NCBI GenBank assembly: GCA_009844425.1
Contig: VYBN01000037.1
Span: 1-64,000 of the forward strand
Reading direction: 5' to 3'
Length of the DNA: 64,000 nt
Source: Gammaproteobacteria bacterium
GTDB taxonomy: Bacteria > Pseudomonadota > Gammaproteobacteria > Steroidobacterales > Foliamicaceae
Within the stretch, counting starts at the first letter, position 1. Every line of letters begins with the position of its first letter. The notes under the pieces are model-generated. The model worked only from the letters and a program-made list of their open reading frames with translations. It was not told the DNA's origin and made no database searches. Positions 372 through 14,106 of the stretch are shown here, one piece after another. Position numbers and translations under genes: made by a program.

Positions 372-1067
372 ATGCCCTCCCGCATCTTCCTGATCGACGA
401 CGACGCAAAGCTCGCCATGCTTCTGCGGGCCTATTTCAGCCGTTTCGATCTCGAGCTCGAGTCCGCGCTGGAAGGCGATACCGGGCTCAGGAAGATGGCT
501 GCCTTCGAACCGGACCTCGTGATTCTCGACGTGATGCTGCCGGGGCGCGACGGCTTCGAGTTGTGCCGCGAGATCCGCAAGACCAGCAGCGTGCCGATCA
601 TCATGCTCACCGCGCGCGGCGACGTGACCGACCGTGTGGTGGGTCTGGAGGTGGGGGCCGACGATTACGTGCCCAAGCCTTTCGAGCCGCGCGAACTGGT
701 CGCCCGGATCCAGACCATTCTGCGGCGCGTGCAGCGTTCGTCAACGGCGTCGGGCGTGGCGGAACACGGTCCGCTGCGGCTTGACTTCGATCGCCGCGAA
801 GCGCACCTGAACGGCGGCCCGCTCGATCTCACCGCGATGGAGTTCAAGCTCCTGCAACTGCTCGCCGGCGAGCCGGGGCGCGTCTATACGCGAGACGAGA
901 TACTCTCGGAGCTGCGCGGCATCGAGCCGAACATATTTTCGCGTTCGGTGGACATCAATATCAGCCGGCTGCGTCAGAAGCTGGACGACGATCCATCCAA
1001 TCCGCGCTTCATCCGGACGATACGCGGCGCCGGCTACGTTTTCCTGAAAGGACAGGCAGAAGCATGA
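372..1067 (+). CDS. OmpR/PhoB-family response regulator
   Basis: This 231-aa DNA-binding regulator has an N-terminal receiver domain (about 4-115) with the acidic pocket near D10/D11, the phospho-acceptor D53 in ILDVMLPG and the conserved Lys in VPKPF. A winged-helix domain (about 135-227) ends in the typical IRTIRGAGYVF motif. Its stop overlaps the start of the histidine kinase by ATGA, so the two are co-translated. The relation to CpxR/ColR-like systems is only general; the signal sensed is unknown. The GTAAC boxes upstream suggest autoregulation. Confidence 0.95.
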   Translation: MPSRIFLIDDDAKLAMLLRAYFSRFDLELESALEGDTGLRKMAAFEPDLVILDVMLPGRDGFELCREIRKTSSVPIIMLTARGDVTDRVVGLEVGADDYVPKPFEPRELVARIQTILRRVQRSSTASGVAEHGPLRLDFDRREAHLNGGPLDLTAMEFKLLQLLAGEPGRVYTRDEILSELRGIEPNIFSRSVDINISRLRQKLDDDPSNPRFIRTIRGAGYVFLKGQAEA

Positions 1068-2176
1068 GCAGTCGTGATCATTGGAGCGAGGCCATGTCCC
1101 TCGCGGCATCCCGCCCTCGAATCATGAATAACCGATTCGTCCGCGCCCTCAAATGGCTGGCGCGCAAGCCGGTGAACGCCTGGCGCTCGCTTCCCGTTCG
1201 CCTGATCCTGATCTTCTTCGCGAGCTTTATCGTCATTTCGGCGGCCACGGCGGCCCTCTTCTGGATTTTCCCGGTCCAGGGGAGTCCGAGGAACATGAAT
1301 GTTGTGCGTGTCGTTGGTTACCCCACGATAGCGGTGGTTTTCGCCGGCTGCTACCTGGCGGTGCGGCGGCTGTTCTATCCGCTGGAGGACATCCGCATCG
1401 GGACCCGCCGCATCGGCGAGGGGCAGCTCGACTACCGGATCCCGATCCGCCGCCAGGACGAGTTCGGAAGGCTGTCGCAACGCATCAACCACATGGCGGA
1501 CCAGGTGAAGCGGATGCTGGAAGGCCAGCGCCAGTTGCTGCTGTCGCTGAGCCACGAGTTGCGCACGCCGCTGACCCGCGCCCGGCTTGCGCTGGAGTTC
1601 ATTCACGACAAGGAAGTGCGCTCGCACCTGGAATACGACCTTGCCAGCATGGAACGCATGATCACGGAATTGCTGGAAGGCGAGCGTCTGAATACCCAGG
1701 GCAGGCAGATGTCGCGCTCAAGGGTCAATCTGAACAAACTGATGACAGAAGTGCTGCGCGGCGATTTTCCCAACGATCGTCACCGGATATCCCTGAGCGT
1801 TCCGCCGGCCCCCGCGCATCTGAGCGTAAATGCCTTTCGGCTGCGGATGCTGGTGCGCAACCTGGTGGAGAACGCGTTGCGCTACAACCCCCAGGACGGC
1901 AAGCCGGTTGAGGTCAGCCTGCGCGTGGAGGACAAAACAGCGGCAATCCGGGTGCAGGACCACGGCCCCGGCATCGAGCCGGAGCACCTGGAACAGGTTA
2001 CAAGCGCGTTCTACCGGGCGGACCCGTCCCGCGGCGCAGGCACGGGACGCCATGGTCTCGGCCTTTACCTGTGCCGCGTGATCGCCGAGGCGCACGGCGG
2101 AGCGGTGGAAGTGGCCAGCCCTCCCGGAAGCGGCGCCTGCATTACCGCCCGCATTCCCGGCGAACCCCGGGGCTGA
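1064..2176 (+). CDS. Sensor histidine kinase (HAMP, HisKA, HATPase)
   Basis: This is the membrane kinase partner of the upstream regulator (370 aa). Hydrophobic segments lie at about 45-68 and 86-103 with only a very short periplasmic stretch between them. A HAMP linker follows (about 100-152), then the H-box SLSHELRTPL with the phosphorylated H164, and an ATPase domain with the N-box (NLVENALRY) and G-boxes (DHGPGI, HGLGLYL). The small extracytoplasmic part suggests sensing within or near the membrane, as in CpxA/ColS-like kinases with reduced sensors. No target beyond the adjacent regulator can be assigned, although the next gene is a TonB receptor. Confidence 0.93.
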   Translation: MSSRDHWSEAMSLAASRPRIMNNRFVRALKWLARKPVNAWRSLPVRLILIFFASFIVISAATAALFWIFPVQGSPRNMNVVRVVGYPTIAVVFAGCYLAVRRLFYPLEDIRIGTRRIGEGQLDYRIPIRRQDEFGRLSQRINHMADQVKRMLEGQRQLLLSLSHELRTPLTRARLALEFIHDKEVRSHLEYDLASMERMITELLEGERLNTQGRQMSRSRVNLNKLMTEVLRGDFPNDRHRISLSVPPAPAHLSVNAFRLRMLVRNLVENALRYNPQDGKPVEVSLRVEDKTAAIRVQDHGPGIEPEHLEQVTSAFYRADPSRGAGTGRHGLGLYLCRVIAEAHGGAVEVASPPGSGACITARIPGEPRG

Positions 2177-2300: not shown

Positions 2301-2316
2301 CCCAATTGTGCATAAT
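2288..2316 (+). promoter_or_regulatory. Candidate sigma-70-like promoter
   Basis: TTTTGC (2288-2293) and CATAAT (2311-2316) are separated by 17 bp and lie 41 bp before the receptor ATG. The -10 region sits inside a short inverted repeat, CCAATT-N6-AATTGG (2302-2319). The -35 overlaps the third 21-bp repeat, so proteins bound there could block or activate this promoter. Confidence 0.45.
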
Positions 2317-2357
2317 TGGACAATTGTTGGCTGCTTGACCGACAAGGAGGACATCCA

Positions 2358-4871
2358 ATGAGATTCAGACTTGCCGTTATTTCCATTCTCTGTGCCGGCG
2401 TGATCGTGGCTCCGCGTCCTGTGATTGCGCAGGAGGGAGCGCTGGAAGAGATCATCGTTACCGCCCGCAAGCGCGAGGAATCCGTTCAGGACATTCCGAT
2501 CGCGGTGAGCGCCTTCAGCGCCAGCGACATCCGCGAACTGGGCATCAGATCCGTTGACGATATTGCGCTCTACACCCCGGGCTTCTCGTTCCAGTCCGGC
2601 TTCGGGCGCAGCTCCTCTCAGGACCGGCCGGCAATGCGCGGACAAACCACGATCATCAATGGCATTGCCAACGTGAAGGCGGTATCGACCTTTGTGGACG
2701 GCATCTACATGGGCGGCAAGGTTTCGTCCGTCGATATGGCTAACATTGAGCGCGTCGAAATAATCAAGGGCCCGCAATCCGCGCAATACGGGCGGGGCAC
2801 CTATGCCGGCGCCATCAACTATGTCACCCGGCGGCCTTCGGAAGAACTGGAAGGCGAAATCACGGTGGGCGGCGCCGAGCACGATTCGTATGAGGTGCAG
2901 GGCTGGATCAGCGGCCCTCTGGTTGAAGATACGGCCTGGTTCCGGCTTGCGGCGGGCTACGACCAGTACGGCGGCGAACACGTGAATACGCTCACCGGGG
3001 ATGAGGTCAACGAGCAAAAGACCACCAACATTTCCGGCAAACTGTTCTTCACGCCCAACGAGCGGTTCGAGGCCACGTTGGCGCTGTCCTACCAGAAGGT
3101 GGACGACAGCCACCCGGCCCTTGCCCTGCAAGCCCGCGAGCACAATAACTGCTGCTTTCGCGGCGAGCCTTCCGGAAGCCCGAACATTACCGGCGTGACC
3201 GGCCCGAGGGCTCGCGAGTACTACATTGGCGAGGCCCAGCGCAATCTGCCGGTGGCCCTGTATACCGCGGAGCTTGATTCCGACACCGGTGCGGGCAACC
3301 GCCTGGATCGGATTACTGCATCGCTGACCATGCACTACGACCTGGCCAACGACTGGCGCGTATCCAGCCTTACCGGACTTATCGACGACGAGTCCGAAAC
3401 GGGCCTTGACGGCACCTACGGCGGCTACGATTTCGGGGTTGCCTGGGTCAACGGGCTGCCGCCTCCTTGGCGCAGCGAAACTTTTGTTGCGCCGTTTCCG
3501 GGTGGCCCGCTGGTCATTCCCGGGGGGCGTTTCTTTTGCGTAAATCTCGGTTTCTGCGGCCAATTCAATCGCATACTTGGCGCCGACCAGTCCGACTTCT
3601 CCCAGGAGCTCCGGCTTTCGTCTCCGTCCGACCGCGCATTCCGTGCCACCGTCGGCCTGTACTATTACCGGGGCGAGCAACACGAAACCCGCGACGACAA
3701 GGTGATGACTGACGCGGCCGCGGCGCTGAGCGACCGGTACGGCTGGGGCCTGGTGGCCAGGGCAGTGTCGCCCAACTCCACCATCGACTACGACGACGTC
3801 ACCAACACGGCCGTTTTCGGCGCCCTCGAATGGGACTTGAACGACAAGTGGACCGCCACGGCGGAGGCGCGAGCCGCGACCGATGAAATATCGCTTGCCG
3901 TTTATGAACCCGGCGGGACCCCGCTTCGCGGCCAGTACGAAGCCGAGTTTGATTCCATCAATCCAAGATTCACGCTCAGCTACAAGGCGAATGAGAACGC
4001 GAATCTGTATCTGAATATCGCCAAGGGTTCCAAGCCCGGCGACTTCAACACACAGGTTCCGATCGGCGCGGACGGCAATCCCGATGAATCCTTCCGCGCC
4101 GTGGAAGAAGAGGTTGCCTGGAACTACGAAGCGGGCTACAAGGCGCTGCTGATGGACGGCAGGACGGCGCTCAATGTGGCCGCCTATCTGACTGAAGTGA
4201 CCGACCAGCAGTTCACGACCGTGATCGAGACGCCCACCGGGGGCAGCGCGTCGCTGCTCGACAATGTGGGCGAGACCCGCGTTGCCGGCCTGGAGGTCGA
4301 TCTTCAGATGGCGCTGTCCGACCAGTTGGTTGTGAATATCGGCTATGCCTGGACCAACGCGGAAATTCAGGAATACGTCAATATCGATCAGGCGGACCTT
4401 AACGGCGCCAACGGCTCACGCAGCGACCTGGCCCGCCTTGGCTCGGTGGCCGGCAAAAGAGTGCCGCGGATACCCGAGCACATGGCCTCTTTGGTGGCGC
4501 GCTATGGCGGCGACGCCATGGCGAATGGCTTTGCTTGGTTCTTCACCGGAGACGTTGTTTACGAAGGCTCGCGCTTTTCGCAAATCCACAACCTGATCGA
4601 AACCGGTGCGCTCACCCGGGTGGGCCTGCGGATAGGTATTCGTCGCGACAACCTGGAAATCGCCCTGTGGGGCAAGAACCTGTTCGATGACGACACTCCG
4701 CTCGACATCCTGCGCTACATCGACCGGCGCTCCGGCGGTTTGCCCAACAACGCACGCATCCCCGGCCATGTGTCCGGCGAACTGAGCAATCCTTCCAGCA
4801 CGCCGCGCGGCTTCGCCATCACGCTGCCCCGCGGGCGCCAGGTAGGCGTAACCCTCAACTACAGCTTCTGA
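2358..4871 (+). CDS. TonB-dependent outer-membrane receptor
   Basis: This 837-aa receptor imports a scarce ligand across the outer membrane using TonB energy. I chose the ATG at 2358 because AAGGAGG lies just before it and it opens a signal peptide (MRFRLAVISILCAG..., cleavage near AQEG); a longer in-frame start at 2316 would spoil the signal. A TonB-box-like stretch (EEIIVTARKREES) leads into the plug domain, with the VERVEIIKGPQSAQYG motif. A large beta-barrel follows and ends in aromatic F (LNYSF). Plugs of this type are abundant in marine proteobacteria, and the ligand cannot be read from sequence. A strong hairpin follows the stop. Confidence 0.95.
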   Translation: MRFRLAVISILCAGVIVAPRPVIAQEGALEEIIVTARKREESVQDIPIAVSAFSASDIRELGIRSVDDIALYTPGFSFQSGFGRSSSQDRPAMRGQTTIINGIANVKAVSTFVDGIYMGGKVSSVDMANIERVEIIKGPQSAQYGRGTYAGAINYVTRRPSEELEGEITVGGAEHDSYEVQGWISGPLVEDTAWFRLAAGYDQYGGEHVNTLTGDEVNEQKTTNISGKLFFTPNERFEATLALSYQKVDDSHPALALQAREHNNCCFRGEPSGSPNITGVTGPRAREYYIGEAQRNLPVALYTAELDSDTGAGNRLDRITASLTMHYDLANDWRVSSLTGLIDDESETGLDGTYGGYDFGVAWVNGLPPPWRSETFVAPFPGGPLVIPGGRFFCVNLGFCGQFNRILGADQSDFSQELRLSSPSDRAFRATVGLYYYRGEQHETRDDKVMTDAAAALSDRYGWGLVARAVSPNSTIDYDDVTNTAVFGALEWDLNDKWTATAEARAATDEISLAVYEPGGTPLRGQYEAEFDSINPRFTLSYKANENANLYLNIAKGSKPGDFNTQVPIGADGNPDESFRAVEEEVAWNYEAGYKALLMDGRTALNVAAYLTEVTDQQFTTVIETPTGGSASLLDNVGETRVAGLEVDLQMALSDQLVVNIGYAWTNAEIQEYVNIDQADLNGANGSRSDLARLGSVAGKRVPRIPEHMASLVARYGGDAMANGFAWFFTGDVVYEGSRFSQIHNLIETGALTRVGLRIGIRRDNLEIALWGKNLFDDDTPLDILRYIDRRSGGLPNNARIPGHVSGELSNPSSTPRGFAITLPRGRQVGVTLNYSF

Positions 4872-5104: not shown

Positions 5105-6262
5105 ATGAGCCTGTACTCGCGCGAGCTTGGGCTTGACCTTCCCGCCGGGCAATCCGCGTTCCTGTGGGGCCCGCGCAAGGTCGGAAAATCCACGCTTCTA
5201 TCGCAACGATTTCCGAACTCGGCCCGATTCGATCTGCTGGATACCCGCACCCTCGTGCGGTTCATTCGTGAACCCTGGCTCTTTGCCGAGCAGGTGCTTG
5301 CTCTCCCGGATGAGCAGCGCCAGCGTCCAATCGTTGTTGATGAGGTGCAGAAGGCGCCGGCGATTCTGGATGAGATTCATCGCCTCATCGAAACCGGGGG
5401 GCTTGCCTTCATTTTGTGCGGTTCCAGCGCCCGCAAGCTCAAGCGCGGAGGCGGCAACCTGCTAGGCGGCCGCGCGTGGCGCTTCAATTTGCATCCGCTT
5501 ACCTGGCAGGAATTGCCGGACTTTGATCTTTTGCGTGCTCTTGATCGCGGGCTGGTGCCCGCCCATTACGACAGCGCGCAACATCGCCGGGCGTTGAACG
5601 GCTATGTTTACGACTACCTCAAGGAGGAAGTATTCGACGAGGGCCTCACGCGCAATGCCGCAGCGTTCTCGCGCTTTTTTGACGCGCTGGGTTTCAGTCA
5701 CGGCGAAATCCTGAACTTTTCGAGTCTCGCCAGGGATTGCGGCGTGGAATCCAAGACGGTGCGGCAGTATTTCCGGATACTTGAGGACACCCTCCTCGGC
5801 TGCATGGTTGAGCCATTCGCCCGGCGCCGTTCGCGAGCCATCCTCACGCGCGCGCCGAAGTTCTACCTGTTCGACGTGGGCGTGGCTGGGAACCTGATTG
5901 GCCGGCGTATTGAACGGCAGCGGGGTGCGGATTTCGGCCGCGCCCTGGAGCATTTCATCCTGATGGAATTGCTGGCTTTTCGCAGCTACCAGGAAGCGGA
6001 TTTCCCGATCCGTTACTGGCGAACCAAGTCCGGTCTTGAGGTCGACTTTGTTCTCGGCGCTGCGGGCCAGGTCGCCATAGAGGTCAAGGGCTCTCGCGTC
6101 CGGCGGGAAGATATAAAGGGCATGCACGCCTATGTGGAGGAACACAAGCCGTCCGCCGCCTTGGCGGTTTGCGGCGAGCCGGCGGCCCGCCGGGCAGGAT
6201 CAGTGGAAGTGCTGCCGTGGGAAGCGTTTCTTGAGCGGCTTTGGTCCGGCAAACTGATGTGA
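5105..6262 (+). CDS. AAA-like ATPase with DUF4143 C-terminal domain
   Basis: This 385-aa protein has a P-loop at residues 21-30 (WGPRKVGKST) and a Walker B strand ending in PIVVDEVQK. The C-terminal part is typical of DUF4143 and carries a nuclease-like fold signature (EVDFVLG...VAIEVKGS). Members of this family are widespread single-gene modules with no settled function. They are often found beside mobile or toxin-antitoxin loci. The gene stands alone, with 233 bp before it and no operon partner. AT-richer upstream sequence (TATAATCCGA around 5063) may supply the promoter. Confidence 0.85.
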   Translation: MSLYSRELGLDLPAGQSAFLWGPRKVGKSTLLSQRFPNSARFDLLDTRTLVRFIREPWLFAEQVLALPDEQRQRPIVVDEVQKAPAILDEIHRLIETGGLAFILCGSSARKLKRGGGNLLGGRAWRFNLHPLTWQELPDFDLLRALDRGLVPAHYDSAQHRRALNGYVYDYLKEEVFDEGLTRNAAAFSRFFDALGFSHGEILNFSSLARDCGVESKTVRQYFRILEDTLLGCMVEPFARRRSRAILTRAPKFYLFDVGVAGNLIGRRIERQRGADFGRALEHFILMELLAFRSYQEADFPIRYWRTKSGLEVDFVLGAAGQVAIEVKGSRVRREDIKGMHAYVEEHKPSAALAVCGEPAARRAGSVEVLPWEAFLERLWSGKLM

Positions 6263-6352: not shown

Positions 6353-7384
6353 ATGCTGGCGAAATTGTCCACGTCGCTGAAAAGCGCCTACCGAGGCTGG
6401 TCCGTGGCCAATCGCGTCGAGTCGTTTGAAGGCTGGCTCGACAGGCGGGAAGAAGGGGGCTCCGACGAGCGCAAATATGACCACGCCGAGACGGTCAACG
6501 ACTACTACTCGCTGTGCAGCGAGTTCATGCAGTTCGGGTGGAACGAATCGCTGCACTTCGCCCCCTTGAGGCCGGGCGAAAGCCTTGACGATTCGATCCT
6601 CCGGCATCAGCGGCTCATGATCGGCAAGCTCAGGCTGACGGAGGGAATGACGGTCATCGACGTGGGCTGCGGGGTCGGGGGGCCAATGCGCCGGGTAGCG
6701 CGTGAGTCAGGCGCCCGCGTCGTCTGCCTCAACAATAACGAACAGCAACTGGAAAAGGCGAAGCGGCGGAACGTCGAAGCGGGCCTGGATCACCTGGCGG
6801 ACTACGCCCACTGCAGCTTCATGGACATGAGCAGGTTCGAGCCTGATTCATTCGACGCGGGCTATGCGATCGAATCGACCTGCCATGCGCCGGACAAGAA
6901 GGGCGCCTTCGCCGAGATCTTCCGTGTCCTGAAGCCCGGAGCCTTCTTCTGGGGTCAGGAAATGTGCCTGACGAACGAGTTCGATCCGAACAGCGCCCGC
7001 CACCGGGCCATCGAGCGCGAACTCATGCACGGGATCGCATTGAACGGGATCGCAACCTTCGCCGAGGTCGATCGGGCGCTGGAGGCGGTGGGGTTCGAAG
7101 TGATCGAGGGAATCGACAGGGCCGTGCAGGAGGACCCGTACACACCCTGGTATCAGCCGATGGAGGGAGATACCGGCACATTCCGCAATCTCCTGCGCAG
7201 GACGCCTGCGGGCCGCAAGGCCATGATCGGCATGGTGAAGCTCACGGAGGCGATCGGGCTTTTCCCGAAGGGTTCGAACACCGTGATCCGGCTCATGGAT
7301 CGGACCGCGGAGGCTTATGTGGCCGGCGGCAAGACCGGGATATTCACTCCGCTTTACTGTTTTCTCGCACGCAAACCGGCGTAG
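6353..7384 (+). CDS. Sterol C-24 methyltransferase-like SAM methyltransferase
   Basis: This 343-aa enzyme has the overall layout of ERG6/SMT proteins: the substrate-binding segment YYSLCSEFMQFGWNESLHFA (51-70), the SAM motif VIDVGCGVGG (101-110), the second conserved block YAIESTCHAP, and an SMT-type C-terminal domain ending IFTPLYCFLARKP. In eukaryotes such enzymes add a methyl to C-24 of the sterol side chain. Homologues from uncultured bacteria have also been described. A close alternative is methylation of another isoprenoid such as a tocopherol or carotenoid. It lies next to a P450/RND operon, and two family-1 inverted repeats separate their convergent 3' ends. No clear ribosome site precedes the chosen ATG. 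Confidence 0.8.
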   Translation: MLAKLSTSLKSAYRGWSVANRVESFEGWLDRREEGGSDERKYDHAETVNDYYSLCSEFMQFGWNESLHFAPLRPGESLDDSILRHQRLMIGKLRLTEGMTVIDVGCGVGGPMRRVARESGARVVCLNNNEQQLEKAKRRNVEAGLDHLADYAHCSFMDMSRFEPDSFDAGYAIESTCHAPDKKGAFAEIFRVLKPGAFFWGQEMCLTNEFDPNSARHRAIERELMHGIALNGIATFAEVDRALEAVGFEVIEGIDRAVQEDPYTPWYQPMEGDTGTFRNLLRRTPAGRKAMIGMVKLTEAIGLFPKGSNTVIRLMDRTAEAYVAGGKTGIFTPLYCFLARKPA

Positions 7385-7708: not shown

Positions 7709-8794
7709 TTACTTTGAGGTGTCGCGCTGGACCCTGACTTGCTGGCCGGGGCTGACCAATTCCTGGCCCACCGTGATCAACGTGACTTCGGCCGGCAATC
7801 CGGAAACCCACAGGCCGTCCGGATCTTCCCGCACCACGTCGATCGGGTAGAAGAGAACCCGCTGATCGTTGTCAACGGCGCGCACGCCCATTTCTCCGTT
7901 GGCGTCCAGAACCACGTAGGACATTCCCACCTTGTGCGCCGGCTGGGCATGCAGCGAGACTTCGACCTCCGCGCTCAACCCCGAGGAAATCGAAAAGTCC
8001 GGGTTGGGCGCCGTCACTTCGATGGGGTAGGTGCGTGACTGGTCCGCCGACTGCTTGCCGATAAAGGTAAGCGATCCGCGGGCCATGGCGCCGGTGGCCA
8101 TCGTGATTTCCACCTCGGCGCCCAGGTCCAGTTGCGGATACTGCTGTTCCGTGACGGCGGCCTCCACGTAGATCGGATCGAGATCGAGAATGGTGGCGCA
8201 GGGGCTGCCCATCTGCAGGTAGTCGCCCACCTCGGCATGCGTCTCTTCCACGAACCCGGCGAACGGCGCAACCACGGCGGTATTCTCGAGTTCCAGTTCG
8301 CTGGCCAGGAGCTGGCGGCGCGCGGAACTCAACTGGGCCTTGGCCCGGGCCACCGCGATCTCCTGCTGCAGGCCCCGTTCGCGCAGCGTCTTCATGCCTT
8401 CGTACTCCAGCGTCGCCAGCTCGACCGCGTCGCCGGCCTCGCGAACGCGCAGCTCGCGGTCATTGACTTCCACCTGGCAAAGCACATCGCCTGCCGACAC
8501 CTGCGCCCCGATATCGATCGGCCGGTCGTCCACGCGGCCGGACGTTTCGGCGCGCACCGTAACCGCGTGCCGGGTTCGCGTGCGGCCGCGCAGCGTCAGC
8601 GTCCTGGATTGCTCCGACGCACGGCTGGTTCGTACCCGCACGACGATTTCGTCCCGCGCTTCCGCGCGCGAAGCGACCGCCGTCTGCCCATCGTCGTCGT
8701 CGCTTCCCAGAATTCCGGACAGCAGCCACACGGCGCAAACTGCAAGGACCAGCCCGGCCCACAACGGCTTGCGCAGGGATTCCCTGATTTTCAT
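7709..8794 (-). CDS. RND efflux periplasmic adaptor (HlyD/AcrA family)
   Basis: This 361-aa membrane-fusion subunit has an N-terminal anchor (about 11-30) followed by an acidic stretch. Then come a biotinyl-lipoyl-like half-motif (VTVRAETSGRVDDRPIDIGAQVS), a short coiled-coil hairpin (about 125-165), and beta-barrel and membrane-proximal domains (VVAPFAGFVEE...). It would link the inner-membrane RND pump encoded at 10873-14106 to an outer-membrane channel, but no channel gene is present in the window. It is the last gene of the operon pump, P450, adaptor, and starts 35 bp after the P450 stop. Confidence 0.9.
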   Translation of the reverse strand: MKIRESLRKPLWAGLVLAVCAVWLLSGILGSDDDDGQTAVASRAEARDEIVVRVRTSRASEQSRTLTLRGRTRTRHAVTVRAETSGRVDDRPIDIGAQVSAGDVLCQVEVNDRELRVREAGDAVELATLEYEGMKTLRERGLQQEIAVARAKAQLSSARRQLLASELELENTAVVAPFAGFVEETHAEVGDYLQMGSPCATILDLDPIYVEAAVTEQQYPQLDLGAEVEITMATGAMARGSLTFIGKQSADQSRTYPIEVTAPNPDFSISSGLSAEVEVSLHAQPAHKVGMSYVVLDANGEMGVRAVDNDQRVLFYPIDVVREDPDGLWVSGLPAEVTLITVGQELVSPGQQVRVQRDTSK

Positions 8795-8829
8795 TGCTGC
8801 AGATTCCGCATCAGCCGTAGCCCCGCAGG

Positions 8830-10827
8830 TCAGAAGTCGTGACGCCTCTTGTCAATGGTAAAGCGAAACTTGCTGTTCGGTGCGCTGGTGGGAAATGGGT
8901 TGAATCCCATCTCGTAGTCCGGCGGGACGACGCTGATGTCGAAATAGTAGGCGATGAGGAGCAGGTTGATCGCCATTTGCAGTTCCACCCATCTAGACCC
9001 CAGGCAATGATGCGTCCCCAGCCCGAACGGCACGTACGCTCCCGGGCGCTTGTGCTCATCCCTGGGCGGCGCGTAGCGGCCGACGTCGAATCTGGAGGGA
9101 TCGGGGAAAGTCTCTTCCAGGTGGTGCGCGGCGGTGTGCGCGAACACCACGCGCGTGTCCTTCGGAATGTTGTAGCCCTCCACCACACAATGGTTCATCG
9201 TGGTGCGAATCTGCATCGGAATGACCGGATACAGGCGCTGGGACTCCAGGAACACCCGGTGCGTGACGTCGATTGCGGACCTCGTGAAGTCGTCCTTGCC
9301 CGGGTCGCCGTTGGCGAACAGCGCCTCGGCTTCCTCCCGGACCCGGCGGTAGATTTCGGGATGGCTGGCCATGCCGTACACGGCAAAGCCCAGGCCGCTG
9401 CCGAGGTAAATGCTGGCGATAAAGCCCGCGACCAGCATGAAGCTCAGATCGGTCTCCGGGAAATACTGCGGATCGCTGGCATGCAGGCTCAGAATATGAT
9501 CGACCAGGTCCTTGGGTTTGCCCTTGCGCTGCGCCGGCGTGTGCGCGTTCAGCACCCGGTTGAGCATCTCGAAAATGTGCTTCCTCTTCCTGGCCATGCC
9601 GGGCGTCTGCATCATGAATTTCGGCAAGGCTTTCTGCACGTGCGTAACGAGCGACCGGTGCTCGTACGTGAGCAGATCGTCGATATGGTCCGAAGCATCC
9701 ACACCCACCATGAGCTGCGACACCTGAACGCTCATCAGCTCCTGGCATGCGGCCGCGCCTGGAATCGGTTGCCCCGGAACCCATTTCTCCAGTGACGCGC
9801 GGCAGAATTTATAGACTTCGTCGAGCCTGGCCTCCAGCGTCGCGCGGGAGTAACCGGCGCGCAAGGCTTTCCTCATGCGGTAATGCTCCGCGCCGTCCAT
9901 GCCGGGCAAGGTGCGGGCCGCGCCGTACAGCCGCTCGAAGTCGGCCATGTGGTCGCGCGTGCGGAAATACTCGCGGCCGCTGCGGTTGATCCAGGCGTTG
10001 GTGTCCGGGCCTGCAAGCGCGACAACGCTCTTGTTCGAGAAAGGCTTCTTGATTCTGAAAACCGGACCGTATTCCCGGTACAGATCCGTCAGGGTCCTTG
10101 AAAGATTGCCTCGCCTCAGATTGCGATTCGGAATCAGCTTCAGCAGGTTGACGGCCGGAATCGGCTGTTCGCGCACCACGAGCGGCGGCACCGGCCGGCC
10201 CTGGCTTTCCTTGACTGCCGCGCCGATCGCCCGTCCCACCAGGTCCATCCTGCAGAGCAGATCGATGCGCTCGCGCGCTTGCTCGTGCTCTTCTTCGGTG
10301 AGAAACAGCGGCAGGGCGTCGCATGCGGCGATCAGGCTGATGAGGATCACGTCCCTGGGATCGGGAATCTCTTCGTCCAGGATGGCGCGAAGGACTCGCG
10401 TCTTGACCTGCAGTTTCGTCGAACCGTCGTCCGCGGAGTACGTTCCGGTGCGCGATACCCGGCGGCTGAGCGACCAGAATCCGCCCGAGTCGTGATCGAG
10501 AATGTTCTTCTTGACCAGCCGGTCGAGGATGATGTCCAGCGCGTCGCTCGATCGTGGCGCGGTCTTTTCGATCCAGTACTGGGCGTTATGCACCGGCGGG
10601 GGCGCCGAGGCGATTTCCTCCAGCACCGGATCCAGCAAGGGGTCGCCCGTTTCCGTGGCGTCCACAAGCGTGAGCGTTTCCGTATCGGTATCGATGCGGA
10701 ATTCGAGCGACAGGTCCGCGAGCACCGAGCCCGCGACCACGCAGGACAGGTTCCAGGCGCCGACGGGCTCGAAATAGCCGCTGTCGTCGTTCAGAAGAAC
10801 CAGCGCCAACTCTTCGGCTAATCTCAC
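8830..10827 (-). CDS. GPP34-cytochrome P450 fusion
   Basis: This 665-aa protein has two parts. Residues about 3-200 match the GPP34/GOLPH3 fold (LAEELALVLLND at the start, VDATETGDPLLDPVLEEIA, then winged-helix-like LDRLVKKNIL). Residues about 230-665 are a cytochrome P450 with the ExxR motif (ESQRLYP), the PERF-like region (DPSRFDVGRY) and the heme loop FGLGTHHCLG with its Cys near 607. The I-helix reads AGFIAS where most P450s have (A/G)GX(D/E)T, so the acid-alcohol pair used in oxygen activation is missing. I prefer the GTG at 10827, which has GGGG upstream and begins the GPP34 fold directly; a TTG at 10872 is possible. It lies between pump and adaptor genes, which is an unusual place for a P450. 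Confidence 0.85.
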   Translation of the reverse strand: MRLAEELALVLLNDDSGYFEPVGAWNLSCVVAGSVLADLSLEFRIDTDTETLTLVDATETGDPLLDPVLEEIASAPPPVHNAQYWIEKTAPRSSDALDIILDRLVKKNILDHDSGGFWSLSRRVSRTGTYSADDGSTKLQVKTRVLRAILDEEIPDPRDVILISLIAACDALPLFLTEEEHEQARERIDLLCRMDLVGRAIGAAVKESQGRPVPPLVVREQPIPAVNLLKLIPNRNLRRGNLSRTLTDLYREYGPVFRIKKPFSNKSVVALAGPDTNAWINRSGREYFRTRDHMADFERLYGAARTLPGMDGAEHYRMRKALRAGYSRATLEARLDEVYKFCRASLEKWVPGQPIPGAAACQELMSVQVSQLMVGVDASDHIDDLLTYEHRSLVTHVQKALPKFMMQTPGMARKRKHIFEMLNRVLNAHTPAQRKGKPKDLVDHILSLHASDPQYFPETDLSFMLVAGFIASIYLGSGLGFAVYGMASHPEIYRRVREEAEALFANGDPGKDDFTRSAIDVTHRVFLESQRLYPVIPMQIRTTMNHCVVEGYNIPKDTRVVFAHTAAHHLEETFPDPSRFDVGRYAPPRDEHKRPGAYVPFGLGTHHCLGSRWVELQMAINLLLIAYYFDISVVPPDYEMGFNPFPTSAPNSKFRFTIDKRRHDF

Positions 10828-10872
10828 AACTACCCCCGCACTCGAATCAGTTGCCTGTAGTGCACAGGCCAA

Positions 10873-13800
10873 TCATACGCCGGGAGAGCGGTTCGCGTAA
10901 CTTTTCCCGCCGCGAAGCCGGACCGGTCTCGGCGCCCTGTTGCGCAGTTCGGTCAGAACGCCCGGGAAACTTCCCTTGAGCCGGCTCGGCAGCACCAGCA
11001 GCGCCGGCGTGAGGATCAGCGTCAGGATCGTGGCGAAGGTCAGTCCGGACACAACGGCCTGGGCCAGAGGCACCCAGTAGCCCGAAAGTTCGCCTCCCGA
11101 TACCCACTTGCGGTTGATGAAATCCACCGATTGATGGCTGGCCAGGGGCAGCAGACCGATCACGGTGGTGACGGTGGTCAACAGCACCGGCCGCAGCCGC
11201 TGCAATCCGGTCAGCACGATGAGTTCGGCGATGTCCCGGCCGGGGAATTCCCTGCGCCCCACGTTGTAGGTGTCGATCAGCACAATGTTGTTGTTCACGA
11301 CGATGCCCGCCAGCGACACCACGCCCACCCCGCTCAATATCGCGCTGAAAGGCTGGTTGGTGATGACCAGCCCCAGAAACACGCCGGCGGTGGACAGCAC
11401 GATCGCCAGCATGATCAGGAAGCTCTGGTAAATGTTGTTGAATTGCGTGACCAGCAACGCGAACATGAGCAGCAGGGCAAAGGAAAAGGCCTTGGAAAGA
11501 AAGTCGATCGACTCCTCCTGCTCCTCGGTCGTGCCGCGGAAGCGGATGTCCACTTCCGAATCGAAGGTCTGGCTGTCCAGCCATGACTGGATTTCGCGGA
11601 TCTTGGCGTCGGGCAGCACGCCGGGCGCGACGCCGGCCCGGATCATGTGGATGTCCTCCTGGTCGGCCCGCTGGATGGTGTCCAGTCGCGGCGTTGCGCG
11701 CCGGGTGACGAAATTCGACAACGGTACCGGCCCGTTCCTTGTGACGATCCTCAGGTCGTCCAGTTCGTTGACGCCGCGGTCTTCGGTCGGGTAGCGGATC
11801 CTGATGTCCAGCGCGTCGTCCGCGTCGTCGGGGCGGTATTCGCCCAGCTTGGCGCCGTTGGTCACCAGTTGCGTGGCCAGTCCCACGGTCGAGACGTCGG
11901 CCCCGTACAAGCCTGCCAAGGCCCGGTCCACTTCCAGTTGCCATTCGATGCCGGGCACGGGAAGCGTGTCCTCGATGTCCCGCAGTCCCTCGACCTCGTT
12001 GACGATGTACTCGCGCACCCTTTCGACCACGGGAACAAGGCGCTCGCGCTCATTGGAGGAGAACTGCAGGGCGATCGGTTTGCCGGCGGTGATCTGGCTC
12101 TCGAACGGCCGCACTTCGATGATCACGCCGCCGAACCTCTCCGTGCGCCGGCGGACTTCCTCCAGGACTTCCATGCCGGTCGTGTCCCGCTGGCTGCTCT
12201 CGACCATCTCGATGAACATGGCGCCGATGCGGTCGGCGCTCGAACCGCCCTGGTATTGCATCCGCTGCCCCTGGGCCTGGCCCGCGCCGGTCGTCGTGAA
12301 CATGTTCAGGTTCCTGATGCCCGGGACCTCGAGGACCGCCGCCTCAACCTCGGCCACGAGCCGGTAGGCTTCCTCCACGTCCAGGTTGCCGCGGGCGCGC
12401 ACGAACACCTGGGCGTAGGTGGGGTCGTTCTCGTTGAAGAAAAGCACGCCCAGATCGCGCGAGCCATGCATGGTAAATATGCCCAGTACCAGCGCGATCA
12501 CGATGGCGACCGTAACCAGGGGACGGCTCACGGCCAGCGAAAGCAGCCGGCCGTAACCGCGCGCGAAACGGCCCAGCCGCGCCCAGTCCAGATCCCACAT
12601 GCCGTCCGCCGCCGCCGGGGCGGATACCCGACTGCGGCGCCGGAACGTCGTTCCCAGCACCGGCGCGAAAATCAACGCATAGAGCAGCGCTCCGATCAGC
12701 ACCCAGAGCAGGGTGATGGGCAGGTACCCCATGAAGGCGCCGGCCACGCCGGGCCAGAACATCAGCGGCACGAAGGCCGCCAGAGTGGTCGCGGTGGAGG
12801 CCAGCACGGGCAGGAACATTCGCTTGGCGGCCGCCCCGTAAGCCTCGAGTTCGGTTTCGCCTTCCGTGATTCTCCGTTCGGCATCCTCGGTGACCACGAT
12901 GGCGCCGTCGATCAGCATGCCCAGACCCAGCAGCATGCCGAACATGACCATGAAGTTGAACGAGTGGCCGAACAGCCACAGGAATATCAGCGCGAACAGG
13001 AAGGACACCGGGATGGCGCCGGCCACCAGCAGGCTGCTCCTCAGGCCCATGGCCGGAAATATGACCAGCATCACCAGCACCAGCGCGGTCACGATGTTGC
13101 CCTGCAGCTCGACGATCTGCTTGGCGGCGAACTGGGAGGTGTCCTGGGAATAGAACATGTTCACGCCCGCCGGCAGCCGATCGCGGAAACCGTCCGCCAC
13201 TTCACGGACCGCGGTGGCCGTTTCGATGCTGTTTGCGCCGGAGCGCCGGTAGACGAACACCGATATGGAACGCTCGCCGTTGGCGTGGGAGTAGCTGGCC
13301 CGGTCCTTGAACGTGCGCCTCACCGAAGCCACGTCGTTTAAGGTCACGACCGTGTCGCCCTCGATGCGCACCGGTATGTCGAGCAGGTCGTCGGTGGATT
13401 CGATGACGCTGGGCACCTTTACCGAGACGCTCCCCTGGGCGGAATCCATCGCGCCCGCCGCGATCAGCCGGTTGTTGCGCGTCAGCGCCCCGTACAGCTC
13501 CTCCACGGACATCCGGTAAGTCGCGAGCTGCTCCGGCCGGATGAGGATTTCCATGAATTCCTCGCGGTGCCCCTGCAGCGCCGCCAGCTGCACCTGGCCT
13601 ACCGTTTCGATCCGGTCGCGAAGGCGCCGCGCGCTGGCGTAAAGCGTTTCCTCCGGGGTGTTGCGTCCAACCAGGTTGATCTGCAGCACGGGGTAGTCGG
13701 TGGTCGCGGTTTCCTCGACAATCGGCTCCTCCGTCGTGGACGGGAACTCGGGCTTGGCCCGGTTCACGGCCTCGCGCACATCGCTCAGCGCTACGTCGAG

Positions 13801-14106
13801 GTCGATTCCCGTCGTGAACTCCACCCCCACCATGGCCATGTTCTCGGCGCCGGTGCCGGTTATTTCCCGGACGCCTTCCACGGCCTTCAGCTCGATTTCC
13901 AGCGGCAGGATCAGCAGCCGCCTGGCGTCTTCCGGAGAGATGCCCTCGTGAACGACGGTAATGACGTAGAACGGAATTTCGATGCGGGGCTCGCTCTCCA
14001 CCGGGATCGAAACGCGCGCGACGATCCCGAAGATCACGATGCCGATCATCGCCAGCAGCGTGGACCGCCGACGCTCAAGCGATAAGTCGATGATCCGGTC
14101 TTTCAT
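10873..14106 (-). CDS. RND efflux transporter permease (HAE-1-like)
   Basis: This 1077-aa inner-membrane proton antiporter of the AcrB superfamily has 12 expected spans in two halves with large periplasmic loops. The fourth-helix motif reads GMLIDGAIVVTED; one of the two adjacent aspartates of AcrB is retained and the second is glycine, as also happens in other RND branches. The start at 14106 (MKDRIIDLSLERR) is chosen because the longer open frame upstream runs antisense into moeA. It is the first gene of the operon followed by the P450 and adaptor. Substrates are unknown; the enclosed P450 suggests a lipid or isoprenoid cargo. Confidence 0.92.
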   Translation of the reverse strand: MKDRIIDLSLERRRSTLLAMIGIVIFGIVARVSIPVESEPRIEIPFYVITVVHEGISPEDARRLLILPLEIELKAVEGVREITGTGAENMAMVGVEFTTGIDLDVALSDVREAVNRAKPEFPSTTEEPIVEETATTDYPVLQINLVGRNTPEETLYASARRLRDRIETVGQVQLAALQGHREEFMEILIRPEQLATYRMSVEELYGALTRNNRLIAAGAMDSAQGSVSVKVPSVIESTDDLLDIPVRIEGDTVVTLNDVASVRRTFKDRASYSHANGERSISVFVYRRSGANSIETATAVREVADGFRDRLPAGVNMFYSQDTSQFAAKQIVELQGNIVTALVLVMLVIFPAMGLRSSLLVAGAIPVSFLFALIFLWLFGHSFNFMVMFGMLLGLGMLIDGAIVVTEDAERRITEGETELEAYGAAAKRMFLPVLASTATTLAAFVPLMFWPGVAGAFMGYLPITLLWVLIGALLYALIFAPVLGTTFRRRSRVSAPAAADGMWDLDWARLGRFARGYGRLLSLAVSRPLVTVAIVIALVLGIFTMHGSRDLGVLFFNENDPTYAQVFVRARGNLDVEEAYRLVAEVEAAVLEVPGIRNLNMFTTTGAGQAQGQRMQYQGGSSADRIGAMFIEMVESSQRDTTGMEVLEEVRRRTERFGGVIIEVRPFESQITAGKPIALQFSSNERERLVPVVERVREYIVNEVEGLRDIEDTLPVPGIEWQLEVDRALAGLYGADVSTVGLATQLVTNGAKLGEYRPDDADDALDIRIRYPTEDRGVNELDDLRIVTRNGPVPLSNFVTRRATPRLDTIQRADQEDIHMIRAGVAPGVLPDAKIREIQSWLDSQTFDSEVDIRFRGTTEEQEESIDFLSKAFSFALLLMFALLVTQFNNIYQSFLIMLAIVLSTAGVFLGLVITNQPFSAILSGVGVVSLAGIVVNNNIVLIDTYNVGRREFPGRDIAELIVLTGLQRLRPVLLTTVTTVIGLLPLASHQSVDFINRKWVSGGELSGYWVPLAQAVVSGLTFATILTLILTPALLVLPSRLKGSFPGVLTELRNRAPRPVRLRGGKSYANRSPGV

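Follow-up and report, generated by a model that had tools for sequence, protein, structure and literature searches.

Across many symbiont phyla, a protein joining a GPP34 domain to a cytochrome P450 was repeatedly encoded beside transporters of the RND superfamily, sterol methyltransferases (SMTs) and Rieske oxygenases. The locus appears to represent a conserved, lipid-linked association of an enzyme with a pump, the lipids most likely being sterols. The window (the whole stretch of 64,000 nucleotides analysed here, from a gammaproteobacterial genome) carried one such fusion gene, and the following features were considered around it.

372..2176, plus strand: genes for a response regulator and a histidine kinase, in synteny with the locus within the genus
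2316..4871, plus strand: TonB-dependent receptor (TonB receptor 129 bits, Plug 70 bits), syntenic with the locus in the genus
5105..6262, plus strand: AAA_14/DUF4143 ATPase gene, at the site of a KshA-like Rieske oxygenase in sister genomes
6353..7384, plus strand: SMT-like gene, convergent with the likely operon (Sterol_MT_C 65 bits, cut-off 21.7)
7709..8794, minus strand: periplasmic adaptor of the RND type (membrane fusion protein), encoded third in the likely operon (RND_mfp TIGR01730 145 bits, HlyD_D23 72 bits)
8830..10827, minus strand: GPP34-P450 fusion protein of 665 aa, GTG start (Pfam p450 147 bits, GPP34 122 bits)
8923..10128, minus strand: cytochrome P450 domain, aa 234-635 (haem ligand Cys608; ExxR residues Glu528 and Arg531; Tyr474 at the usual position of the I-helix threonine)
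10207..10821, minus strand: GPP34 (GOLPH3/Vps74) domain, aa 3-207 (profile match and fold match; Trp25 invariant)
10873..14106, minus strand: RND inner-membrane transporter of the AcrB/AcrD/AcrF family, first gene of the likely operon (ACR_tran 505 bits)

Organization of the locus

The genes for pump, fusion protein and adaptor were separated by gaps of 45 bases (pump to fusion) and 35 bases (fusion to adaptor), so that, judging from their spacing, they likely form a single operon. An earlier reading of this DNA, made from the letters alone and hereafter called the sequence-only reading, had placed an oxygenase gene between pump and adaptor, and this was borne out on the minus strand. Residues of the fusion protein were numbered from the likely GTG codon at 10827, located 15 codons inside a 680-aa open reading frame.

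Both an ACR_tran transporter and an RND-type adaptor, as expected of a tripartite RND pump, were present, the TIGR01730 score of the adaptor exceeding the cut-off of that model. No outer-membrane channel was encountered among the operon genes and annotated neighbours, and a tblastn search of the window with the OEP protein of a related locus detected none, unlike many fusion loci of relatives, which did include one. The genome contained five full-length ACR_tran genes, that of the operon among them. The pump (10873-14106) displayed the stretches LIDGAIV near residue 398 and NNNIVLID near residue 938. AcrB has two aspartates and one lysine in these regions, and the proton relay of the window's pump may differ from that of AcrB.

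The product of the convergent SMT-like gene combined a Methyltransferase and a Sterol_MT_C domain, in agreement with the identity given to it by the sequence-only reading. Within the genus this gene stayed adjacent to the operon, and in other phyla an SMT gene was often encountered close to the fusion. The site occupied by the AAA_14/DUF4143 ATPase gene was taken by a KshA-like Rieske gene in sister genomes G002, G003 and G007, and no close copy of that oxygenase was present in the window's genome. The ATPase is probably foreign to the system; a gene of the same kind was also seen near the fusion at locus L081 (15838-17019). The response regulator and histidine kinase possibly regulate the locus. 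An M50 (site-2-protease-like) peptidase gene directly adjoined the fusion at gammaproteobacterial loci L032, L072, L078, L090 and L092.

The GPP34 and P450 domains

Structure prediction gave a pLDDT of 86 for the whole fusion protein and of 91 for the isolated GPP34 domain. The N-terminal domain matched PF05719 with 122 bits (cut-off 29), and its model resembled human GOLPH3 (9qpq) with Z 18.8 (2.7 Å over 193 residues) and yeast Vps74 with Z 17.6, unrelated rows reaching 3.7 or less. As modelled, the domain has the GOLPH3/Vps74 fold, and the possibility that it does not fold as GPP34, which the sequence-only reading had named as fatal to its proposal, was thereby set aside.

Phosphoinositide binding, carried over by the same reading from eukaryotic GPP34 proteins, was not supported. 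The residues of GOLPH3 that contact PI4P are Trp81, Arg90, Arg171 and Arg174. Only the tryptophan was kept in the aligned domain of the window, as Trp25, which did not vary among 59 fusions; Arg90 was replaced by alanine, Arg171 by a gap and Arg174 by a hydrophobic residue.

GPP34 was also joined to other partners. A second GPP34 protein of the window's own genome (L036:7312-10008, contig C5) had a hydrophobic C-terminal region that apparently spans the membrane, and the next gene downstream encoded a multihaem cytochrome c. In a related genome (L035:7462-9327) GPP34 was fused to an MFS transporter, beside a putative methyltransferase gene. These fusions make it plausible that GPP34 serves as a membrane or transporter module. 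For GOLPH3 itself, insertion of a loop into the bilayer has been described (PMC7037725).

The P450 part matched solved P450s in structure (Foldseek E 3e-16) and displayed the family's haem motif FxxGxxxCxG as FGLGTHHCLG and its ExxR motif as ESQR; Cys608, Glu528 and Arg531 were invariant in 59 aligned fusion sequences. The nearest solved P450s by sequence were CYP120A1 and CYP51 (73-78 bits). An assignment to CYP51 was rejected, since the fusion scored at most 76 bits against CYP51 (78 against CYP120) and the same genome encodes a separate, true CYP51 scoring 377 bits against that of M. capsulatus (Methylococcus).

The acid and the threonine of the P450 I helix normally help to split oxygen. 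The window's fusion lacked this canonical pair (D/E-T) and carried Ile473-Tyr474 instead; a hydrophobic residue thus stood for the acid, and the tyrosine was invariant in all 59 aligned fusions. Threonine was found at the Tyr474 position in the closest stand-alone P450s (about 31 % identity), which are devoid of GPP34. The fused P450s form a natural family that lacks the usual oxygen-activating pair; they may handle oxygen in an atypical way, use peroxide, or perform chemistry other than hydroxylation.

Distribution and genomic neighbourhood

When about 85,000 species genomes were scanned, about 65 further records of the fusion emerged from at least seven phyla, namely Pseudomonadota, Acidobacteriota, Rhodothermota/Bacteroidota, Nitrospinota, Nitrospirota, Chloroflexota and Actinomycetota. 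One extra record from Latescibacterota may be mis-binned, since the tree placed its sequence beside an Acidobacteria one. Orthologues from different phyla shared 41-92 % identity. Eight of the nine genomes of the window's genus carried the fusion, as did 14 of the 147 genomes of the order. In a class sample of 369 genomes the full-length fusion was restricted to the window's genome and one other, two further genomes displaying the P450 part only. An assembly artefact was ruled out by these intact copies across many assemblies.

The arrangement was therefore not unique to this genome, an outcome that would have spoken against the sequence-only reading. Pump, fusion and adaptor followed one another in exactly this order, with the SMT gene adjoining, in six of the nine genus genomes; the order was seen in this genus only, other lineages having the same partners in other arrangements. 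Loci L054, L073, L079 and L030/L034 displayed two GPP34-P450 genes, either close together or on contig ends; such pairs could be paralogues with different substrates.

All fusion records of checkable origin came from sponge symbionts. The jk18x records originate from Ircinia sponges (PMC9531527), and the COS, RHO, CAR, IRC and APA bins fit, to judge from their initials, the seven-sponge set of PMC8163846. Phyla were intermixed in the fusion tree, which is compatible with transfer between symbionts and is no proof of it. The open-access literature searched contained no earlier description of a GPP34-P450 fusion; papers naming GPP34 together with P450 were confined to insect-toxin studies sharing the abbreviation.

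Neighbours within 6 kb of the fusion were counted at the 42 loci flanked by 6 kb or more on each side. Of these loci, 28 had a transporter of the ACR-type RND group, eight an MMPL/sterol-sensing RND transporter, and 36 one or other of the two. As background, 25 of the fusion genomes had about 162 matches to ACR_tran in a total of about 90 Mb, from which an ACR-type pump is expected by chance at about 3 % of loci; chance neighbourhood was thus excluded by the cross-genome counts. After collapsing fusions at 70 % identity, an ACR pump remained near 11 of 20 representatives (binomial probability about 3e-12). Six of the 42 loci lacked an RND gene within this distance; at four of these six, the neighbours inspected were not transporters.

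Gene order and strand varied among lineages, and at least three pump groups accompanied the fusion: the window's type; a second type, only about 25 % identical to it, that comes with an adaptor and an outer-membrane channel of its own; and MMPL proteins bearing a sterol-sensing domain, the partners in some Actinomycetota and Chloroflexota (L075, L080, L100). In genome G004 the pump and adaptor were orthologous to those of the window (67 % and 58 % identical), while the fusion was just 49 % identical and reversed. Shifting order and strand, together with three transporter types, indicate that the link to pumps is not one frozen block; a vertically inherited block was likewise excluded by the changing gene order and the phylum-mixed tree.

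A putative sterol module and its closest relatives

KshA-like Rieske oxygenases (3-ketosteroid-hydroxylase type) were found within 6 kb of the fusion at 23 of the 42 loci, and SMT genes at 18 (absent at 24). Elsewhere in the window's genome, contig C19 carried an apparently complete set of sterol synthesis genes: a 3beta-HSD-like gene, a Rieske gene, ERG24, CYP51, a squalene epoxidase-oxidosqualene cyclase fusion and a second SMT. The epoxidase-cyclase, a single protein of 1135 aa with the DCTAE motif (L112:10190-13597), is like the product of the msbE gene of a Melophlus symbiont. SMTs of sponge symbionts are functional on sterols (PMC10070321), and steroid clusters are shared among Ircinia symbionts through horizontal transfer (PMC9531527).

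The most direct genetic tie of the fusion locus to sterols is provided by G004, whose sole CYP51 gene lies within the GPP34-P450/adaptor/pump locus (L032:5223-6587; L125 corresponds to contig C37 of G004) and is absent from the sterol cluster, where it would stand between ERG24 and the cyclase. ERG24 exceeded the cut-off in 36 of 50 fusion genomes. Within the order (147 genomes), 12 genomes had ERG24 above cut-off and 11 had both genes, i.e. ERG24 accompanied 11 of the 14 fusion genomes versus one of the 133 fusion-free ones; the genomes that combine fusion and ERG24 being clustered by family and habitat, these counts are not independent. G006 displayed a sterol cluster and no fusion, while OSC, ERG24 and CYP51 were undetected in the fusion-bearing genomes G001, G002 and G008 (G002 being just 66 % complete). 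The module is thus not strictly tied to de novo sterol synthesis.

From the recurrence of the fusion beside RND-superfamily transporters, SMTs and Rieske oxygenases in many symbiont phyla, together with the host genome's sterol cluster, we lean slightly towards reading the three genes as a module for modification and transport of a sterol or closely related triterpenoid. Sterols reside in membranes, so a soluble P450 acting on them would gain from being held there. GPP34 would anchor the enzyme to the cytosolic side of the inner membrane or to the pump, through a lipid or through a protein tail. The substrate would be a membrane-resident sterol, supplied by the OSC/CYP51/ERG24 cluster or by the sponge, which the SMT and, in many relatives, the Rieske oxygenase could alter further. 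Pump and adaptor would then extract the product from the inner membrane, presumably towards the outer membrane or the host. Such an extraction step is possible in view of the RND protein BstA, which binds C-4 methylated sterols through its periplasmic domain (PMC10942540). Weighing against this reading, SMT genes were lacking near the fusion at 24 of the 42 loci, no outer-membrane channel was detected at the window's locus, RND genes are widespread and ACR-type pumps frequently transport drugs. The lipid modify-and-export system proposed by the sequence-only reading was supported in part, by context, and can be narrowed to sterols, given the SMT and Rieske neighbours, the MMPL replacements, the sterol clusters and the relocated CYP51; its phosphoinositide part was not supported.

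The docking partner may differ within this sterol module. GPP34 could grip a protein, for instance the cytosolic tail of the pump, in place of a lipid, a variant which we regard as possible though somewhat doubtful. GOLPH3 is known to grip the basic, membrane-proximal tails of Golgi enzymes (PMC8421267), the arginines of the PI4P site are absent from the fusion, and the MFS and hydrophobic fusions of GPP34 point in the same direction; the accompanying pumps, however, differ in type and have unlike N-termini. A bolder extension of the sterol module is tentative and rather unlikely in its full form: a sterol oxidation-export unit exchanged among phyla within sponges, in which a GOLPH3 domain would park a P450 of unusual chemistry (tyrosine for the oxygen-activating threonine) on membrane or pump, and an RND-superfamily transporter suited to each envelope would deliver modified sterols for symbiosis.

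Detoxification is an improbable alternative, according to which the P450 would oxidise toxic chemicals of the sponge or its symbionts for export by the RND pump, the nearby sterol genes being coincidental. It draws on the frequent role of ACR-type RND pumps as drug pumps, on the pairing of differing RND subfamilies with the fusion and on the general richness of sponges in bioactive compounds. Coincidence is difficult to reconcile, however, with SMT and KshA-type Rieske genes recurring beside the fusion across phyla, with MMPL/sterol-sensing transporters substituting for the pump, or with the position of the sole CYP51 of G004. Least probable of all is uptake of host sterols, whereby TonB receptors would import sponge sterols, Rieske, P450 and SMT would change or degrade them and the pump would serve lipid balance of the envelope or removal of by-products: the TonB receptors (often in tandem) and two-component system syntenic with the locus in the genus, the match of the Rieske KshA_C domain to ketosteroid hydroxylase and the existence of fusion genomes without OSC, ERG24 and CYP51 would suit it, but the window's genome carries its own sterol-making genes, genes for ring degradation were not encountered in the locus, and beyond the genus the TonB receptor did not generally accompany the fusion.

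The ways in which bacteria transport and tailor sterols are still mostly open, and it is disputed which organisms make the unusual sterols of sponges that serve as animal biomarkers. For both questions the locus offers a candidate that can be tested, in which a P450 is fused to a putative membrane-binding domain, linked genetically to a pump and conserved across unrelated symbionts. It also gives the almost unexplored GOLPH3-like proteins of bacteria a role to study.

Among known systems, BstABC of Methylococcus (PMC10942540) likewise has an RND-superfamily transporter genetically linked to sterol enzymes, and at some related fusion loci the transporter is an MMPL protein that has a sterol-sensing domain. 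The window's pump differs in being of the ACR_tran type with an adaptor, not MMPL-type, and its operon includes a P450. The steroid clusters of sponge symbionts (CSG, PMC9531527; msb locus, PMC7074536) have their counterpart on contig C19; the available portions of these papers mention no GPP34 protein or RND pump, and the fusion locus is separate from that cluster. SCO4440 of Streptomyces (PMC12402492) is a bacterial GPP34 protein studied by mutation. No P450 partner was described for it; its gene adjoins a carboxypeptidase gene, and it affects the cell wall and wall-deficient cells. CYP120A1 and CYP51 share the P450 fold, haem cysteine and ExxR motif with the fusion at about 20 % identity, whereas the hydrophobic residue and invariant tyrosine of the I helix and the N-terminal GPP34 domain set the fusion apart. 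GOLPH3/Vps74 (PF05719) differs from the window's bacterial, P450-fused domain at Arg90 (alanine in the fusion) and in the arginines 171 and 174, for which the fusion has no counterpart; the two agree in fold along almost the entire domain (Z 17-19) and share the tryptophan equivalent to Trp81, the invariant Trp25.
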